Shown here piece by piece: positions 48,043-54,709 of a DNA stretch of 64,000 nucleotides; the stretch's first letter is position 1, and each line of letters starts with the position of its first letter. Both the position numbers and the translations under genes were made by a program. The notes under the pieces are model-generated. The model saw only the letters and a list, made by a program, of their open reading frames with translations, made no database searches and was not told where the DNA came from. Origin of the DNA: Roseibium limicola (GTDB lineage: Bacteria > Pseudomonadota > Alphaproteobacteria > Rhizobiales > Stappiaceae); the NCBI RefSeq assembly GCF_017313085.1, contig NZ_JAFLNF010000003.1, forward strand, positions 372,001 through 436,000, in the 5' to 3' direction.

Positions 48043-48065
48043 AAAAAAGCAGCCGCTGCCGCGGC
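48043..48065 (-). terminator. Probable terminator of the barrel/FecR unit
   Basis: On the minus strand GCCGC, four bases, GCGGC (48065-48052) is followed after three bases by six T (48048-48043), 28 bases after the FecR-domain gene stop. The stem is short but GC-only. Confidence 0.6.
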
Positions 48066-48092
48066 CATACCGGTAGAAACGCACGAAATCAG

Positions 48093-51000
48093 CTACTGGT
48101 TGGCGCCTGTTTGCAGTTCACCAGCGATGATGCCTGTTGCCTGCCAGTCGGCATCACGTGCATTGAAGTCGCCAATCACACCCTGGACACTGCTGGTTGG
48201 ACCGCGGACAACGGAGGTATGCATGGTCCCGATATGATTTGCTGCCTGGTTGGAAATCGCACCGTAAAACTTGTTTGTATTCCCTCCGGCAAAATTATTC
48301 AGATCGGCGGAGAGAGAGCGTCCATCGAAATTGCTGATTGTCGCTGAGCCACTCCGGCTGGCGAAATCGACGCTCATAGAAAAGTCACCTGCCGCGAGAT
48401 ATTGATTGGCGGCGTTTCCACTGCCGCGAATGACACTACCTACGGCATGGCCGGCATAGCTCGCACTACCTGTGGCTGGCAGCTCACTCTCGGACAGGAC
48501 GTCGCCCGCTACCCATGTGCCCATGTGTGTTCGAGCAACCTGTGTGCCATCGGGCAGTGTCGCGCTCTGTGAGCCATCCAGCTCCAGCTCACCGCCCCAG
48601 TATCCCCACTCGAGGAAGGCGCAGGTGCATTCCGTCTTGCCGATGAACAAGGCGTCATCCCCGGTGCCGGCCACCGTGCTCGGAATGAAATAGTTGTGAG
48701 AATTTTCATCCGTCAGCTGCGTCAAGATTTCTTCACTATCGAGCACAGCATATGAATCGGTGTGTTGCTGAGGATCCCGTGCAGCGTAGGTATCAGCATC
48801 GACAAAAATGCCCCGCTGGGTGCCAGTGCCATCAATGCTTGATCCGAATTGAAAGTGCAGCATTTCAAGGTAGTTGTCGGCTTGAACTTCAGCTGCTGCG
48901 GCAGACTGATAGAATGTGGCATCGGAGACGATCATGGAAACCTGAACGGTACTTGCATCGGCATCCAGCTTAAGGCTTAGATCGCTTGGGGCGCGGCTGC
49001 TGAAAATCACGGCACCAAGCCCAGAACCATAGTTCATGCTGGTTTCAACCGCTCCGGTTGCATAGCCCAAATACGTAGCTGTTTCCCGTTCAAGGTCTGC
49101 CTTTGCTACCTTCCCAGCCAATGATGCAACCTGAAACGAGCCACTGAAGCGTTGGGCCGCGTCGACAGATAGAAAGGCTGGCGTCAAAAGATAGCTATCG
49201 CTGTAGGGGTCATTTTGATCCAGGTTAAGTCCGAGAACCATGTAATCGGCATCGGGACCAAAGATGTAACCTCCGTCAGCTGCCATCTGCAGGCTGCCAC
49301 GCCCGCCGAAGCGACCTGCGGTTTGATCGGCTTTAACCCGTTGGCTGCCACGGCGTTCCCACGTTGCGGAGACGTTGCCTGCTTCGTTTGCAAAGAAGTC
49401 GTCGACCAGCAGGGAAACAAAGGACCTTTGGGCCGCGCCTGCTCCGGAAATCAAAAAGGAGCTGGCCAACTTCTTAGCGCCCTCAAACGAGCCTGACGAC
49501 TGTTCAAGCACATACAGTGGCGTAGTCTGAATACCTTCAACAAAATCGGAACCAAACTGTTTGGCGACCAAGGGGTTCAGCATAAGGGCAGCACTCTCCA
49601 GCGGCAGGTAGCCACCATCGGCGAGTTCAGAGCCCAAACTGAACGACAGTGTAGGATCCGGGGTCAGTGCATAGCTGCGAACCTGCGGCTCTGCTGGCAC
49701 AACACCACTGAAATCCGTCTTGATCGCGCGCATGCCAAGAGCGACATCCCCCACTTTATAGGCTGGCTCAGCACCGTTACTAAAGAAATGGGCAAAAGCC
49801 AGAAAGTTGTTGTCATAGTCAAAGTATTGAACGCCGCGCGCATAGCCGGTCACAGGACCGCGCAGGAGTTCATCCAGCATTGGCGCATCAGGGACCACGC
49901 TGCCATCGCTGCTCTGGGCGACATAATCCGTCGAAGTCAGAGCCTGTTGATAGTAATGACTCCCCTTGCCCTTGAAAACGAATTGATAGAGAGGGTTGCC
50001 TGCAACCTGAGCATAGGCCAACTCGGTCGCGTTCCCTTCCTCGACATATCCAAAGTCTGCGGCAACAGTCTGGGCATGGCCGTCTCCAAGGCCGATCAAC
50101 CCTTGCGATCCTGGATCCGAAATAACTGCCGTCTCGCTGTCTGGATGAACAAACGTTTCTGCAGGAGTGAGAATGCGCACATCGACCGTGATCACAGGGT
50201 CTATGGGCGTCTCAGGGTCAGTGGGTGTTACCGGCACTTCTGGATCGACCGGCGTCTCCGGCTCAGGTGTCTTCACCGGCCGCTTGTTGATCGTATGGGC
50301 CACATGCTCCTGATTGGCGACCTGTGGTGGGGCAAGTGCGTGCTCTGCCTGCTTTGGCTCAGTCGAGCGCACGACATTTGGTTTGCGCGGAGGCGCCGTA
50401 AAATTCGCCGGAAGTCGCGAGTTTGCGTTCGGGAAACCGGAATTTACGACTGAGCGTGGCGTCGGCGGATTTCTTGTGCCCCCACGCTGCCCAGCGCGCC
50501 CGGCAAGCGCGGATTGCACCTGTCCGATGTCATTGCTCGTCGTGCGCCTCACCGCGCTACCACGGCCGCCACTGGCGGTCTGTATCGTATAGCCAGGCTC
50601 AAAAACACGACGCGAGATCCCTTGCGGGTCAGTAAAAATCAGTTCGTCACCAAATATGAGCGAAAAAGTCGACGAGTTCGCGTCATCTACCTTCAGGTTG
50701 GCGATGGCGCCGCGGATCCCGATCGTGCCGACCGGTGTCTTGACGCTGACAGCCCCCTCGTTTTTGGAAAGCTTGCCACCAACAAACCGTGCTGCCCCCT
50801 TGCTCAGAGTTGCGATCAGAGTTCCGGTGCCGGAATTTGGGTCATAGACGAATTCATCGATGATCAGATCGGACCCCGGCCCGACGGTAAAGGTAGAGCC
50901 ATCATTCAGCAGGATTTGGGCCAATCCCTCGTCGCTCGTCTCGATCCGGTGGCGGTAAATTACGTTGTCCCCGAGCACCATCACCTGACGGGCCGCTCCT

Positions 51001-51200
51001 GGAGCCGTGCCATAAGTTGTCTTGTTGACAGCTGCTGTCACCCCGACCGGAGCGGCCTCAACGGAAAGAGCGTGCAAGGACAATGTCATAACGACAGCAA
51101 CTGCGAGCACCACGGCGGGGCGAACGCCCTTTAAACGCGCAGACTTTTGCGCTGCTGAAGACATCATCAGAGAGCATTGGCGGCTTTGCTTCTTGCGCAT
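48093..51200 (-). CDS. Large exported FecR-domain protein, probable Slam/T11SS-like cargo
   Basis: The 1035-residue protein has a signal peptide (hydrophobic stretch about 26-45, ending SVEA-AP) without a lipobox Cys. A FecR domain follows at about 70-175 (ILLNDGSTFTVGPGSDLIID, then VSVKTPVGTIGIRGAI). Next comes a basic linker to 300, a Pro/Asp-rich spacer (about 310-336) and a long beta-rich region. The C-terminal 150 residues (SASYAGHAVGSV, then FSMSVDFASRSGSATISNFDG) resemble the TbpB-like barrel found in Slam-dependent cargo. FecR domains normally sit in periplasmic sigma regulators, but no TonB receptor or sigma factor is present. ATG 51200 has GAGGGAG upstream. The preceding gene encodes the probable outer-membrane translocator. 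Confidence 0.8.
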   Translation of the reverse strand: MRKKQSRQCSLMMSSAAQKSARLKGVRPAVVLAVAVVMTLSLHALSVEAAPVGVTAAVNKTTYGTAPGAARQVMVLGDNVIYRHRIETSDEGLAQILLNDGSTFTVGPGSDLIIDEFVYDPNSGTGTLIATLSKGAARFVGGKLSKNEGAVSVKTPVGTIGIRGAIANLKVDDANSSTFSLIFGDELIFTDPQGISRRVFEPGYTIQTASGGRGSAVRRTTSNDIGQVQSALAGRAGQRGGTRNPPTPRSVVNSGFPNANSRLPANFTAPPRKPNVVRSTEPKQAEHALAPPQVANQEHVAHTINKRPVKTPEPETPVDPEVPVTPTDPETPIDPVITVDVRILTPAETFVHPDSETAVISDPGSQGLIGLGDGHAQTVAADFGYVEEGNATELAYAQVAGNPLYQFVFKGKGSHYYQQALTSTDYVAQSSDGSVVPDAPMLDELLRGPVTGYARGVQYFDYDNNFLAFAHFFSNGAEPAYKVGDVALGMRAIKTDFSGVVPAEPQVRSYALTPDPTLSFSLGSELADGGYLPLESAALMLNPLVAKQFGSDFVEGIQTTPLYVLEQSSGSFEGAKKLASSFLISGAGAAQRSFVSLLVDDFFANEAGNVSATWERRGSQRVKADQTAGRFGGRGSLQMAADGGYIFGPDADYMVLGLNLDQNDPYSDSYLLTPAFLSVDAAQRFSGSFQVASLAGKVAKADLERETATYLGYATGAVETSMNYGSGLGAVIFSSRAPSDLSLKLDADASTVQVSMIVSDATFYQSAAAAEVQADNYLEMLHFQFGSSIDGTGTQRGIFVDADTYAARDPQQHTDSYAVLDSEEILTQLTDENSHNYFIPSTVAGTGDDALFIGKTECTCAFLEWGYWGGELELDGSQSATLPDGTQVARTHMGTWVAGDVLSESELPATGSASYAGHAVGSVIRGSGNAANQYLAAGDFSMSVDFASRSGSATISNFDGRSLSADLNNFAGGNTNKFYGAISNQAANHIGTMHTSVVRGPTSSVQGVIGDFNARDADWQATGIIAGELQTGANQ

Positions 51201-51226
51201 CGCGCGCTCCCTCGTGTAGCTCACGG

Positions 51227-52630
51227 TCAAAAGGTCTTGATCAACGCAACGGAGGCTGCGACGTCGCTGTATGTGCTCAAGTCATAGTTGGAGAACAGTC
51301 TCCGATATTCGCCCGTCACACTCACAGCAAAATCGCTGCGTAGCGGTACTGTCAGAGTTGCACGCACGAATCCCTCATCGTCCTCCTGTGCTTCCGTCGC
51401 GCTGACGACTGGATCCGCGCCCTGAAAAGTTCGATGCAGGTAGCCTACATCCAGAGACGCGGACCAACTATGAGGTAGTGTTGGCAGCAATGAAGCAAAC
51501 TGAACGGTCGCACCAGCGCTACCGCCAATTTCCCAACTCTGTCGCCAAACGCTCTTGGCTTCTTCAAAATCTCCAAGAACTGTCACACGAGCAGAAAGGG
51601 CACCCGTGAGTTGATGGGTGAGTGTCAGATTGCCCTTCAGCTGATATCCGGCACGGTCTGACAACGTCGGATTGGTGGCCGTGTCGTTATACCAGCGACG
51701 GCGAAACTCAAGCTTTCCGGAAAGCTCCGTCTTATCTGCTGGCCTTAGTGCGATCCGAGTGCCACCGCCCAAAGCAGCACTATAATTTGCATAATCCAGA
51801 TGGACACCGCTAACGATACCATAAAGACCCAAGCGGCCACTGCCGATGCCAAACCTTGCGAGGTTTAGAGAAGGACCGAAGGTGACCTCCGACAACACGG
51901 TGTCGAGTCGACTGACATCGCGATAGTGGGATCCGTAGGCAAGGAAGTCTGCCTCCAGTGCGTCACCCTGCGTTCCCAGATCGTATCCCAGATGACCGGT
52001 AGAAACACCGTAAAGGTTGACATCGGCGCGGCCCGTCGAGGTCTCATCAAGTAAAAAGGTGCTGCCATTCAGGGAAATCGCTCGGCTACCCGGGGCTGCA
52101 TTGGCGTTGCTCTGCACCCGAACACCCGCCAACAGCATGGCCTGAAAGTTCGTCGTTTCCTCCGAGGCGTCGATGGCGGTTAGGAACGACCGAACCCGAG
52201 ATTCGACTTCTTCTGGAACCTCAGGCCCGCTAATGGCAGCAGTGAAATACTGCCGGGCCATTTCAGATGCCCCAATTCGGTAATACAACACACCGAGTTC
52301 AAGCTGAACGCGTGCCAGTCCCGGCGCAAAGATCAGCATTCTTTCAAATGTGCTGACTGCAGCTTCAAAATCGCCCAGCTGCGCAGAGACGCTGGCGTAT
52401 TCGAAGGCAATATCCAGATTATCTGGCTGTACCAGCATTGCGCTCAAAAGCTGCTGCTGACGTGCCGGGAGAGTGGCCGTTCCCCCTTCCACCGTCTGGG
52501 CAGATGCAGGCACGATCAAGCTTGAGAGACCTAAGTAAAACAATAAGCATACACGACTAATCCAAGCGACAAAAGAATGCCATGTCAGACAACGTGCATA
52601 TATCCCTGTTCTGCGTACAAATGCCTTCAT
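51227..52630 (-). CDS. TPR/beta-barrel outer-membrane protein, Slam-like (DUF560-type)
   Basis: The 467-residue product has a signal peptide (ending near VPASA-QT), a TPR-type helical region (about 60-165: LAFEYASVSAQLGDFEAAVSTF read as repeats of the tetratricopeptide pattern, then LARVQLELGVLYYRIGA) and a C-terminal part of about 280 residues of alternating polar/hydrophobic strands. It ends in VALIKTF, a terminal Phe as in outer-membrane barrels. TPR plus DUF560 barrel is the layout of Slam proteins, which move cargo to the cell surface. The frame extends to GTG 52717, but that would run through the terminator at 52707-52738; ATG 52630 is used. It is directly upstream of the FecR-domain gene. 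Confidence 0.8.
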   Translation of the reverse strand: MKAFVRRTGIYARCLTWHSFVAWISRVCLLFYLGLSSLIVPASAQTVEGGTATLPARQQQLLSAMLVQPDNLDIAFEYASVSAQLGDFEAAVSTFERMLIFAPGLARVQLELGVLYYRIGASEMARQYFTAAISGPEVPEEVESRVRSFLTAIDASEETTNFQAMLLAGVRVQSNANAAPGSRAISLNGSTFLLDETSTGRADVNLYGVSTGHLGYDLGTQGDALEADFLAYGSHYRDVSRLDTVLSEVTFGPSLNLARFGIGSGRLGLYGIVSGVHLDYANYSAALGGGTRIALRPADKTELSGKLEFRRRWYNDTATNPTLSDRAGYQLKGNLTLTHQLTGALSARVTVLGDFEEAKSVWRQSWEIGGSAGATVQFASLLPTLPHSWSASLDVGYLHRTFQGADPVVSATEAQEDDEGFVRATLTVPLRSDFAVSVTGEYRRLFSNYDLSTYSDVAASVALIKTF

Positions 52631-52706
52631 GCGGAAAACTAAGATCTTAAATTGAAAAGAATAGAAATTAAGGAATACACAGAGAAGCACTGCATTCAAG
52701 ATAAAA

Positions 52707-52738
52707 TAAGGGCGCACCGAAATGAACTGGCGCGCCCT
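52707..52738 (-). terminator. Terminator of the 5'-nucleotidase gene
   Basis: GGGCGC (52710-52715) pairs with GCGCCC (52732-52737); on the minus strand the stem is followed by the T-rich TTATTTTA. It isolates the nucleotidase gene from the barrel/FecR unit. Confidence 0.8.
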
Positions 52739-52786: not shown

Positions 52787-54385
52787 TTACTTGATTACAA
52801 TACGACCATCCGTGAAAGGCTTGTAACCGTTTGACTTGGCGATAAATTCGGCAACGACCTTTTCCAGGTTCGGGCCGTAGTCATAGGCTTCCTCGCCCTT
52901 TTCATCAAAGACAGAGTATCCGTCACCGCCGCCGCGCATGTAATTGTTGGAAACAACACCGTACACTTTTGCAGGATCAATCGGTGCCCAGGAATCGCCA
53001 GAACCAACCATCACATCGCCGATTCGTTCACCTGCAGGCTTGGAAGCGTCAACGCTGAACTTGAGGCCCGCAACCTGCGGGAAACGACCAGCGCCCTCTT
53101 CGATCTGCGAGACACCATTCTCCAAGGCTTCCACCACACCGGAGCCCGGCAGCAGGAAAGTCGCCAGGGTATTCTGGAATGGCAGCACCGTCAGAACTTC
53201 GCCCATGGTAATGTCGCCACTGTCGATGGAGGAGCGCAGTCCGCCACCGTTTTGAATGGCAATCTGAACGCCCTGCGCTTTCACACGGTCAAGCATGGCT
53301 TCGGCCACCAGATTGCCCATTGAGCATTCCATCGCACGACAGACGTCGCGAGAGCCTTCAATTGCCTCGGAGGTATGACCGATGACTTCCTGACGGATCT
53401 CATCCAACGGTTCGGCAAGCTGTTTGATGCGGTCCTTCAACTCGGCGTTTTCGACGATCTGCCCATCAACGACGATCGGCTCTCCAACGGCTTCGGTCAC
53501 AACGCCCGCATCATCAAAGGTGACATTCAATTCGCCCAAGAACTTGCCGTAGGCATAGGCCTGCACGATGGCTGTCTTGCCGCCCTCCGGCGTATCGACC
53601 CAGGTCGGATAGGCACCCTTGGCCTTATCCGAGGTGTTCGACAGGTAGGTGTTCGAGTGCCCACCGACGATCACGTCAATTCCGGAAACACCGGCCGCCA
53701 GGGCCTTGTCGACTTCATAGCCAGAGTGGCTGAGCACAACGATCTTGTTGATGCCTTCAGCGCTGAACTTTTCGATTTCGGCCTTAACCGCTGCAATCGG
53801 ATCCGAAAAGCTGACGTTGGGACCCGGGCTGGACAACTCATGTGTGTCTGCGGGTGTCAGGCCGATGAGACCGATCTTCTCGCCGTTCTTTTCGATCACG
53901 GTCGACGGCTTCAACACGTCTGCGAGCTGCGGCTCCTTGGAGACATCTGCGTTGGACAGCAGGATCGGGAAACCGACCGCGTCCATAAAGCCGCGCAGAA
54001 CTTCAGGGCCATCGTCGAATTCGTGGTTGCCCACGGTCATCGCATCATAGCCGAGCGTGTTCATCATCTCGGCGGCGACTTTACCCTTATAGTAGGTGTA
54101 GAAGAGCGACCCCTGAAACTGGTCACCACCGTCCACCAGCAGGGAATTGTCGAGCGCCCCACGACGCTCCTTGATCAAAGTCTCAAGGCGTGCAGAACCA
54201 CCAAAGCACTTGCCCTCGGCATCGTCTTCCTCACTGCAGCCGCTGTCATACTTGTTGATCGGCTCGATCCGGCTGTGGAAGTCGTTGGTGTGCAAGATGG
54301 TAATCTTGTAGTCGGCCAAGGCCGCTGAAGACAGAAGTGTGCCGGCTGCCAGAGCGGCCACCCCCCATTTGATAGACATACCCAT
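52787..54385 (-). CDS. 5'-nucleotidase / UshA-type metallophosphatase, periplasmic
   Basis: The 532-residue product has a signal peptide (residues 1-24, ending SSAALA-DY), a calcineurin-like metal domain with all ligands in order (HTNDFHSR, DGGDQFQGS, TVGNHEFDDG, LSHSGYEVD, VGGHSNTYL) and a C-terminal 5-nucleotidase domain (NGGGLRSSIDSGDITMGEVL, then NNYMRGGGDGY). It releases phosphate from extracellular nucleotides or related esters. Two Cys near residues 50 and 59 may pair. ATG 54385 has GAGG 8 bases upstream and is preferred over GTG 54394. Monocistronic, with its own terminator. Confidence 0.92.
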   Translation of the reverse strand: MGMSIKWGVAALAAGTLLSSAALADYKITILHTNDFHSRIEPINKYDSGCSEEDDAEGKCFGGSARLETLIKERRGALDNSLLVDGGDQFQGSLFYTYYKGKVAAEMMNTLGYDAMTVGNHEFDDGPEVLRGFMDAVGFPILLSNADVSKEPQLADVLKPSTVIEKNGEKIGLIGLTPADTHELSSPGPNVSFSDPIAAVKAEIEKFSAEGINKIVVLSHSGYEVDKALAAGVSGIDVIVGGHSNTYLSNTSDKAKGAYPTWVDTPEGGKTAIVQAYAYGKFLGELNVTFDDAGVVTEAVGEPIVVDGQIVENAELKDRIKQLAEPLDEIRQEVIGHTSEAIEGSRDVCRAMECSMGNLVAEAMLDRVKAQGVQIAIQNGGGLRSSIDSGDITMGEVLTVLPFQNTLATFLLPGSGVVEALENGVSQIEEGAGRFPQVAGLKFSVDASKPAGERIGDVMVGSGDSWAPIDPAKVYGVVSNNYMRGGGDGYSVFDEKGEEAYDYGPNLEKVVAEFIAKSNGYKPFTDGRIVIK

Positions 54386-54709
54386 TTCAATCACCTCATC
54401 TTTCAGGCTCGCTCGCCCTGAACGCGCAGGGTCTGCTGCCCCCCTTGACGCATCATGCTACCATGCAGTTACAACGATTTTTCGTCGCACCTGCACCGGA
54501 GAAAACACAGCCAGACCCGTCAGCTGCTCGCCGGCAAAGACGCATGCACTAAGGGCGCAGGTCAGCCGCTTTTTTACTCGAACAGTATGGAGGTGATTAT
54601 TTTTTCACGACAAGACGTTTTTTTCACCGCCCAGTCCAAAATTATGCCAATTTCTATTAAGTATATGAAATATAATAATATTAAATGTTAGCCGAATAAT
54701 CTCTCTAAT
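54386..54709. other. Intergenic region between yacG and the 5'-nucleotidase gene
   Basis: These 324 bases hold the nucleotidase promoter. The left two thirds are of average composition; 54600-54709 is strongly AT-rich with a run at 54650-54690 (for example ATATAATAATATT). No clear PHO box, gene or RNA was recognised. Confidence 0.45.

Follow-up and report, generated by a model that had tools for sequence, protein, structure and literature searches.

An outer membrane protein of Slam/DUF560 ancestry and its FecR-bearing, TbpB/fHbp-like partner in Roseibium limicola, with CHASE2 cyclase genes alongside in many relatives

We analyzed a 64,000-nucleotide stretch of DNA from Roseibium limicola (contig NZ_JAFLNF010000003.1, positions 372,001 to 436,000), referred to here as the window. 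Two minus-strand genes in it code for an outer membrane protein (OMP) and, downstream, for a large FecR-domain protein that we call the cargo. An earlier note, made from the sequence letters, had placed the two genes at 48093-52630, and the open reading frames (ORFs) bear this out. The likely OMP start is the ATG at 52630, inside an ORF spanning 51227-52717. The cargo ORF covers 48093-51230, and its ATG at 51200 gives a protein of 1,035 amino acids. The spacing between the OMP gene and the cargo gene is 26 bp. The positions of both genes, their domains, and the neighboring features are collected in Table 1.

Table 1. Features of the OMP-cargo locus, in window coordinates
Feature	Coordinates	Strand	Basis
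OMP gene, tetratricopeptide repeat (TPR) domain plus 14-strand barrel, Slam/DUF560-like, 467 amino acids	51227..52630	-	ORF, Pfam, AlphaFold2, hhalign
OMP N-terminal TPR-like domain, residues 53-156, six helices	52163..52474	-	Weak Pfam matches and model
OMP 14-strand beta-barrel, residues 160-466	51233..52153	-	Model; profile-profile match to SlipAM proteins
FecR-bearing cargo/sensor gene, 1,035 residues	48093..51200	-	ORF, Pfam, AlphaFold2
Cargo FecR domain region, residues 50-220	50541..51053	-	Pfam (85-176), model, Foldseek match to PupR signaling domain
Cargo conserved stretch right after FecR, residues about 222-262	50415..50537	-	Alignment
Cargo disordered Pro-rich linker, residues 236-335	50196..50495	-	Low predicted local distance difference test (pLDDT) score; Pro content
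Cargo beta-rich middle region, residues 337-860	48621..50192	-	Model, mostly confident
Cargo invariant Cys-X-Cys, residues 858-860, ahead of FLEWGYWG	48621..48629	-	Alignment
Cargo predicted C-terminal TbpB/fHbp-type region, residues 864-1029	48114..48611	-	Pfam, model, Foldseek
UshA-like 5'-nucleotidase gene upstream of OMP gene	52787..54394	-	Pfam
Terminator-like hairpin between 5'-nucleotidase and OMP genes	about 52709..52738	-	Folding
Terminator-like hairpin and T-run after cargo gene	48048..48067	-	Terminator scan; weak by folding

For comparison, we used the best 80 of 225 loci from an OMP-profile scan of genome contigs. These 80 named loci are, by their titles, what we take to be alphaproteobacterial. 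The OMP alignment holds the window protein and 60 of the 80 OMPs, the cargo alignment holds the window protein and 57 of 72 cargos, and a further set holds 33 cargo C-termini, all picked for spread and completeness. A separate set of 31 regions came from a 150-genome sample of the order and partly overlaps the 80 loci (e.g., L066/L131 and L068/L145). Some of the 80 loci are cut by contig ends, and absences refer to the DNA stretch examined.

Slam outer membrane proteins have an N-terminal TPR domain followed by a 14-strand barrel. The AlphaFold2 model of the window OMP (mean pLDDT, 91) consists of an N-terminal helix, six TPR-like helices, and 14 long strands, and its C-terminal residue is Phe. 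Twelve Pfam TPR-type models hit the whole protein weakly, each below its own cut-off. Thus, the earlier description of a TPR plus beta-barrel protein ending in Phe stands, with the TPR part weak in Pfam. The same note had called the barrel Slam/DUF560-like, a claim that held at the level of profiles but not at the Pfam cut-off for SlipAM (PF04575). When the OMP barrel profile (61 rows) was aligned by hhalign with ten proteins from the same order that are all over the SlipAM cut-off, the match scored 99.6% (E 6.6e-24, 281 columns). Reversed SlipAM proteins and Porin_2, used as controls, scored 3.6% and 7.8%. OMPs from a group with short FecR partners, described below, reached 98.8% (E 4e-17).

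At E values up to 0.1, SlipAM hit 17 of the 61 aligned OMPs (best, 1.9e-6) and TPR_Slam hit 16. One relative, G014 (37% identical over the aligned part), scored 21.3 bits alone against a SlipAM cut-off of 22 and reached 23.5 bits only with pieces of its frame summed. Because the window OMP falls below the SlipAM cut-off yet has this profile-level homology, it is a distant but clear, diverged relative of Slam/DUF560 proteins. Of the barrels compared, DUF560 is the closest to it, although it is not assignable to PF04575 by Pfam's cut-off. We rejected a porin or a polysaccharide exporter, as hhalign favored SlipAM strongly over Porin_2 and by many orders over BBP2_2. Foldseek matched the OMP model to generic barrels in the PDB (BcsC, PelB, CymA, OmpG, and others), with no Slam among the best 50 matches listed. 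The NCBIfam hits, EpsL and TIGR03016, were weak.

The cargo had been described as a 1,035-residue protein with an N-terminal FecR domain and a Pro-rich spacer, and both parts were found. Pfam places FecR above its cut-off (E 6.4e-9), and the linker behind it is richer in Pro than the rest of the protein in all 58 aligned rows. The stretch right after FecR follows the pattern VRRT..D...Q..L.G.PG..GG....PTD..V..S....NS, which is also present in the short FecR partners of L106, L147, and L148. The middle region has no Pfam family at an E value of 1. At the start of the C-terminal region, a pair of Cys residues occupies invariant columns of the 58-row alignment, as CxC in the window and as CxC or CxxC in relatives. 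No lipobox was seen in the first 70 residues of the window cargo, in line with what the earlier note had said. A lipobox-like match occurred in 2 of the 58 rows with a loose pattern.

The AlphaFold2 model of the cargo (pLDDT, 85) ends in eight strands that start at residue 912. On the whole cargo, the Pfam family FHBP_C stayed under its cut-off (25.8 versus 28.1 bits), and on the last 200 residues alone, it was barely over (28.7 bits). TbpB_B_D was under its cut-off for both. Across the 33 C-termini, FHBP_C hit 21 and TbpB_B_D hit 17 (E up to 0.1), and slam_lipo hit 23 at an E value of 0.01 or better, the window scoring 31.8 bits against a model cut-off of 80. Foldseek against the PDB put TbpB at the top for the cargo model, followed by the PupR signaling domain, fHbp, LbpB, and NHBA C-terminal domains. 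In total, 49 of the 50 matches listed were TbpB, LbpB, fHbp (some as chimeras), NHBA, or the FecR-type PupR signaling domain. The NHBA C-terminal domain gave a template modeling (TM) score of 0.71 to 0.75 by target length. By query length, TM scores were low (at most 0.14) because each match spans part of a multidomain model, and the TbpB superpositions had a high root mean square deviation. When three lipoprotein-type cargos from the order were compared with the cargo C-terminus by hhalign, the scores stayed weak, at 21% or less, and gave no added support. Judged from its predicted fold, the C-terminus is of the TbpB/fHbp kind, as the earlier note had proposed.

The FecR domain and its fold match to the PupR signaling domain resemble cell-surface signaling of the FecI-FecR-FecA type, here with parts missing. 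Unlike those systems, the window locus has no sigma factor or TonB receptor among eight neighboring proteins (Pfam, E 1e-5), and by eye none was present in the 22 most shared neighbor families of 95 loci. In addition, nothing is folded ahead of FecR in the cargo model that could serve as a cytoplasmic anti-sigma part. With the sigma factor, the TonB receptor, and the anti-sigma part all unseen, we rejected this explanation and regard it as very improbable. A phage origin of the pair was also rejected; a viral-contig scan gave no relative, and over the FecR region, the one match was a PHROG of unknown function. FecR domains also occur elsewhere in the order in very long frames, such as G079:C33 (6,904 residues) and G006:C9 (3,770 residues), which may be giant adhesins whose N-terminal module is periplasmic.

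A FecR gene accompanies the OMP gene in 79 of the 80 named loci, and in the exception (L154), the sequence stops about 190 bases past the OMP gene. The FecR gene comes directly after the OMP gene in 75 of the 80, 74 by script plus L140, in which the longest frame begins before the OMP gene but the ATG lies right after it. FecR and the barrel are joined in one gene in 70 of the 80 loci. Beyond these, L116 and L165 carry the FecR and barrel halves in separate frames; their cargo frames are split, and in L165 that of the OMP as well, as in decay or sequencing error. The pairing is therefore kept in related genomes. The earlier note had named three findings that would speak against it (a C-terminus without a TbpB-like barrel, a first protein that is not a DUF560 barrel, and no conserved pairing), and none of them was seen. 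In 24 of the 80 loci, a UshA-like gene adjoins the OMP gene, which is the window layout; going by titles, these presumably belong to the family of the window organism.

Some members of the OMP family have a different partner. In L120, L121, and L129 (Stappia) and L128 (Hongsoonwoonella), the OMP gene is preceded, at a distance of about 2 kb, by a short FecR gene, and no barrel cargo is seen in the examined DNA. More distant OMPs are found with short FecR proteins (257 to 458 residues, no barrel) in nine regions of the 150-genome sample. Because some OMPs of the family pair with these short, barrel-less proteins, the FecR module is a more constant partner of the OMP than the cargo barrel is. 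Three SlipAM-type OMPs (L078, L082, and L089) have a lipoprotein-like cargo gene just upstream, judged by eye, and no FecR in the stretch; the L089 cargo matches TbpB_B_D at an E value of 1e-12. These three are ordinary-looking type XI pairs within the same order. In a further arrangement, one OMP gene is followed by two FecR-plus-barrel cargo genes (L160, L162, and L171 from Hyphomicrobiaceae bacterium UBA7697 and Methyloceanibacter, and L071 to L073). All of these but L171 have a short FecR gene in addition, which in L073 is in broken frames, and the second L171 cargo is in split frames. Such arrays could possibly provide alternative sensors.

A CHASE2 gene stands in the gene row of 38 of the 80 named loci. 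In 32 of these, it is on the same strand downstream of FecR, in 4 it is divergent before the OMP gene, and in 2 it is placed otherwise. All but one of the 32 downstream genes overlap the FecR gene or sit within 100 bases of it, although longest-ORF starts exaggerate some of these overlaps. By Pfam, CHASE2 is present in 38 of 38 products and an adenylate/guanylate cyclase domain in 37 of 38; the one member without it may be L144, which runs into a contig end. Among the 31 regions of the order sample, 12 have a CHASE2 gene, including eight of the nine short-FecR regions; in one of these, L076, the CHASE2 gene is about 6.5 kb away. A plasmid annotation (Shinella sp. H4-D48 p1) lists a hypothetical protein, a FecR domain protein, and an adenylate/guanylate cyclase in a row, and by Pfam, this cyclase has CHASE2 plus Guanylate_cyc. 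Of the 150 genomes, 26 have the OMP-FecR pair, and CHASE2 occurs in 25 of these, compared with 80 of the 124 remaining genomes (Fisher P = 7e-4, without correction for kinship). The lone genome with the pair and no CHASE2, G123, is 56% complete. The earlier note had stressed a FecR domain without a sigma factor or TonB receptor. Neither was seen among the eight neighbors, but the FecR domain is not without a signaling partner, because a CHASE2 cyclase is linked in many relatives.

The window genome (99.84% complete) has one CHASE2 adenylate/guanylate-type cyclase (G000:C16, near 82-84 kb) and one CHASE2-GGDEF-EAL protein, both unlinked to the pair. Descent of the window-family cyclase from an operon-linked cyclase was not borne out by a cyclase tree made by a quick method with several long branches. 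An NHLP bacteriocin export annotation follows right after the CHASE2 cyclase gene on the Shinella plasmid p1 (L187, 12746-16654) and right after the FecR gene on an Ensifer plasmid (L188, 6612-10021). One family is common to 17 of 95 loci; its example (L158, 16131-18404, minus strand) looks by eye like a SulP-type transporter, and SulP genes are annotated near the OMP-FecR pair in L187 and L188.

A fused relative is found on pSymB of Sinorhizobium meliloti 1021, where the plasmid's one CHASE2 cyclase gene directly follows a 1,219-residue ORF with FecR (2e-15) and TPRs by Pfam and, by the same search, no TbpB/fHbp-type domain. This presumably is the NsrA-CyaK gene order, and we take the ORF and the cyclase to be the NsrA-CyaK receptor pair, judging from size, position, and partner. 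In the excerpted text of PMC7529298, NsrA is an outer membrane receptor with a barrel at residues 600 to 1200, and CyaK is its cyclase. A single chain that has FecR, TPRs, and, according to that text, an outer membrane barrel, and that is encoded next to a CHASE2 cyclase, supports grouping both window proteins with such a cyclase. The window system shares FecR, TPR, and an outer membrane barrel with NsrA-CyaK, whose cyclase gene adjoins that of the receptor. Unlike NsrA, it consists of two separate proteins rather than one fused chain, and the cyclase linkage is a trait of 38 of its 80 named relatives, with the cyclase unlinked in the window genome itself. Two further systems are described in partial texts. 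A Campylobacterota cluster combines a CHASE2 cyclase, a phosphodiesterase, a FecR-domain outer membrane protein, and a TPR protein (PMC9239204), and the Burkholderia BiofilmReg operon combines a LysM-FecR protein with a CHASE2 histidine kinase (PMC5192318). The first resembles our locus in associating CHASE2 cyclase, FecR, TPR, and outer membrane; it belongs to another phylum, and the excerpt names no Slam-type OMP or TbpB-fold cargo. The second resembles it in joining a FecR protein with a CHASE2-domain sensor, but its output is a histidine kinase, it has LysM, and the excerpt names no OMP gene.

A rival explanation is a receptor like NsrA that works without secretion. The OMP would sense a ligand and signal to a periplasmic FecR domain, and the TbpB-like body would be a periplasmic plug, binder, or adaptor. 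Such a receptor would fit the pSymB ORF, a FecR-TPR fusion beside its cyclase with a C-terminal barrel according to the part of PMC7529298 cited above. It would also fit the loci in which a short FecR partner stands with the OMP and a cyclase (L080, L081, L083 to L087, and L147). We nevertheless consider it unlikely, since the barrel that unites known and predicted cargo of the type XI secretion system (T11SS), the TbpB/fHbp-type barrel in the excerpts of PMC12282271, is kept in 70 of the 80 named loci and the OMP and cargo genes are directly adjacent.

The window pair is like Slam/DUF560 type XI secretion (PF04575) in its TPR domain, 14-strand barrel, profile homology, and adjacent TbpB/fHbp-type cargo. 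It is unlike it in that the OMP lies under the Pfam cut-off and the cargo is non-lipidated and about 1,000 amino acids long, with an N-terminal FecR domain and an invariant Cys pair. Unlike in type XI loci, many relatives link a CHASE2 cyclase, and no TonB receptor was seen nearby. Under plain type XI secretion, the OMP would secrete or display the entire cargo together with its FecR domain, and the cargo would serve as an adhesin or binder; the cyclase would share the operon in some relatives for coregulation only. A DUF560-like OMP with a TbpB/fHbp-type cargo is what this would predict, soluble T11SS cargo has a precedent in the part of PMC8406197 that we cite, and 42 of the 80 named loci, including those of the window type, show no cyclase. 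However, FecR is retained even without the cargo barrel, and a cyclase stands in the row of 38 of the 80. FecR-CHASE2 neighbors also recur without this OMP, both in L198, L204, L205, and L209 and in the two excerpted sources on Campylobacterota and Burkholderia (PMC9239204 and PMC5192318). Plain secretion is, to us, a fairly unlikely account that still deserves weight, and in our judgment, signaling is the more likely role.

We hypothesize that the locus serves trans-envelope signaling, in which the OMP displays the sensor, the FecR end is periplasmic, and the signal goes to a CHASE2 cyclase; we hold the chances of this to be evenly balanced. The OMP would work in a type XI-like way: it would recognize the cargo by its C-terminal barrel and move the TbpB/fHbp-like body out onto the cell surface. 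We propose this translocation step because of the homology to type XI proteins. Remaining in the periplasm, the folded FecR domain of the non-lipidated cargo would both anchor the protein and relay the signal, and the Pro-rich linker would pass through the OMP or alongside it. Binding of a ligand to the surface body would change how FecR touches the CHASE2 domain, which lies on the periplasmic side of an inner membrane adenylate/guanylate cyclase, and cyclic-nucleotide output would change in turn. For the window organism itself, this cyclase would be G000:C16, which is not linked to the pair. The retention and signaling steps are proposed because of the gene association and the fused relative. 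More tentatively, and at somewhat less than even chances, we suggest a type XI-like translocon turned receptor, with a polypeptide half outside (TbpB-like) and half periplasmic (FecR) whose linker would lie in or at the OMP and which would switch a CHASE2 cyclase of the inner membrane.

Several results weigh against trans-envelope signaling by a type XI-like OMP. For the OMP, the window protein has no SlipAM match in Pfam even at an E value of 1, the generic family OMP_b-brl_3 hits 10 of the 61 aligned OMPs (best, 3.7e-5), and the BBP2_2 control, a set that includes one short wrong row (L237), scores 91.5% (E 8.8e-7) in hhalign with the OMP barrel profile. Translocation need not be the sole or ancestral job of the OMP, because related OMPs pair with barrel-less FecR proteins. 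Retention of FecR would itself be a departure from type XI secretion, because T11SS cargo is transported outside whole in the excerpted account of PMC12282271. For the cyclase, there is no CHASE2 gene in the examined DNA of 42 of the 80 named loci; these 42 include all 24 loci with the UshA-like neighbor, and some of the rest are cut by contig ends. In the cyclase tree, the window's family is represented by stand-alone cyclases from five genomes, which make up a clade of their own (support, 99). This clade does not fall within the cyclases that are linked to barrel cargos; it groups with three cyclases linked to an OMP and a short FecR protein, and with others. The tree behind this placement was midpoint rooted.

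Searches of open-licence literature gave no paper in which CHASE2 or "FecR domain" occurs alongside Slam, DUF560, TbpB, or type 11 secretion, and "FecR" is absent from the main texts of PMC12282271 and PMC8406197. FecR-CHASE2 pairings are already in print for Burkholderia and Campylobacterota (excerpts of PMC5192318 and PMC9239204). For CHASE2, a common sensory domain with few known inputs, the conserved row of OMP, cargo, and cyclase offers a concrete, testable route by which outside signals could get past the outer membrane. Because the operon includes an enzyme for a cyclic nucleotide (such as cyclic AMP) in many relatives, it suggests that an export machine was reused to bring outside signals into the cell. 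If true, type XI secretion would extend beyond displaying binders and hemophores and would take in signal transduction, in bacteria from soil, the sea, and plants. It would also be joined to second-messenger signaling, a link that would be common across Hyphomicrobiales and also occur in some Rhodobacteraceae.

Finally, the pair had been described as bounded by terminators on both sides, which held for one side and only in part for the other. The upstream hairpin (about 52709-52738, followed by TTATTTT) was more stable than 200 of 200 shuffles (z, -4.4), though a simple terminator scan did not pick it up. Conversely, the scan picked up the downstream hairpin with its T-run (48048-48067), whose stability was not above that of shuffles (z, 0.39). 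Because of the strong terminator between them, the UshA-like 5'-nucleotidase gene is set apart from the OMP-cargo pair and is probably its own transcription unit. In several Stappia loci, a short FecR gene lies ahead of the UshA-like gene.

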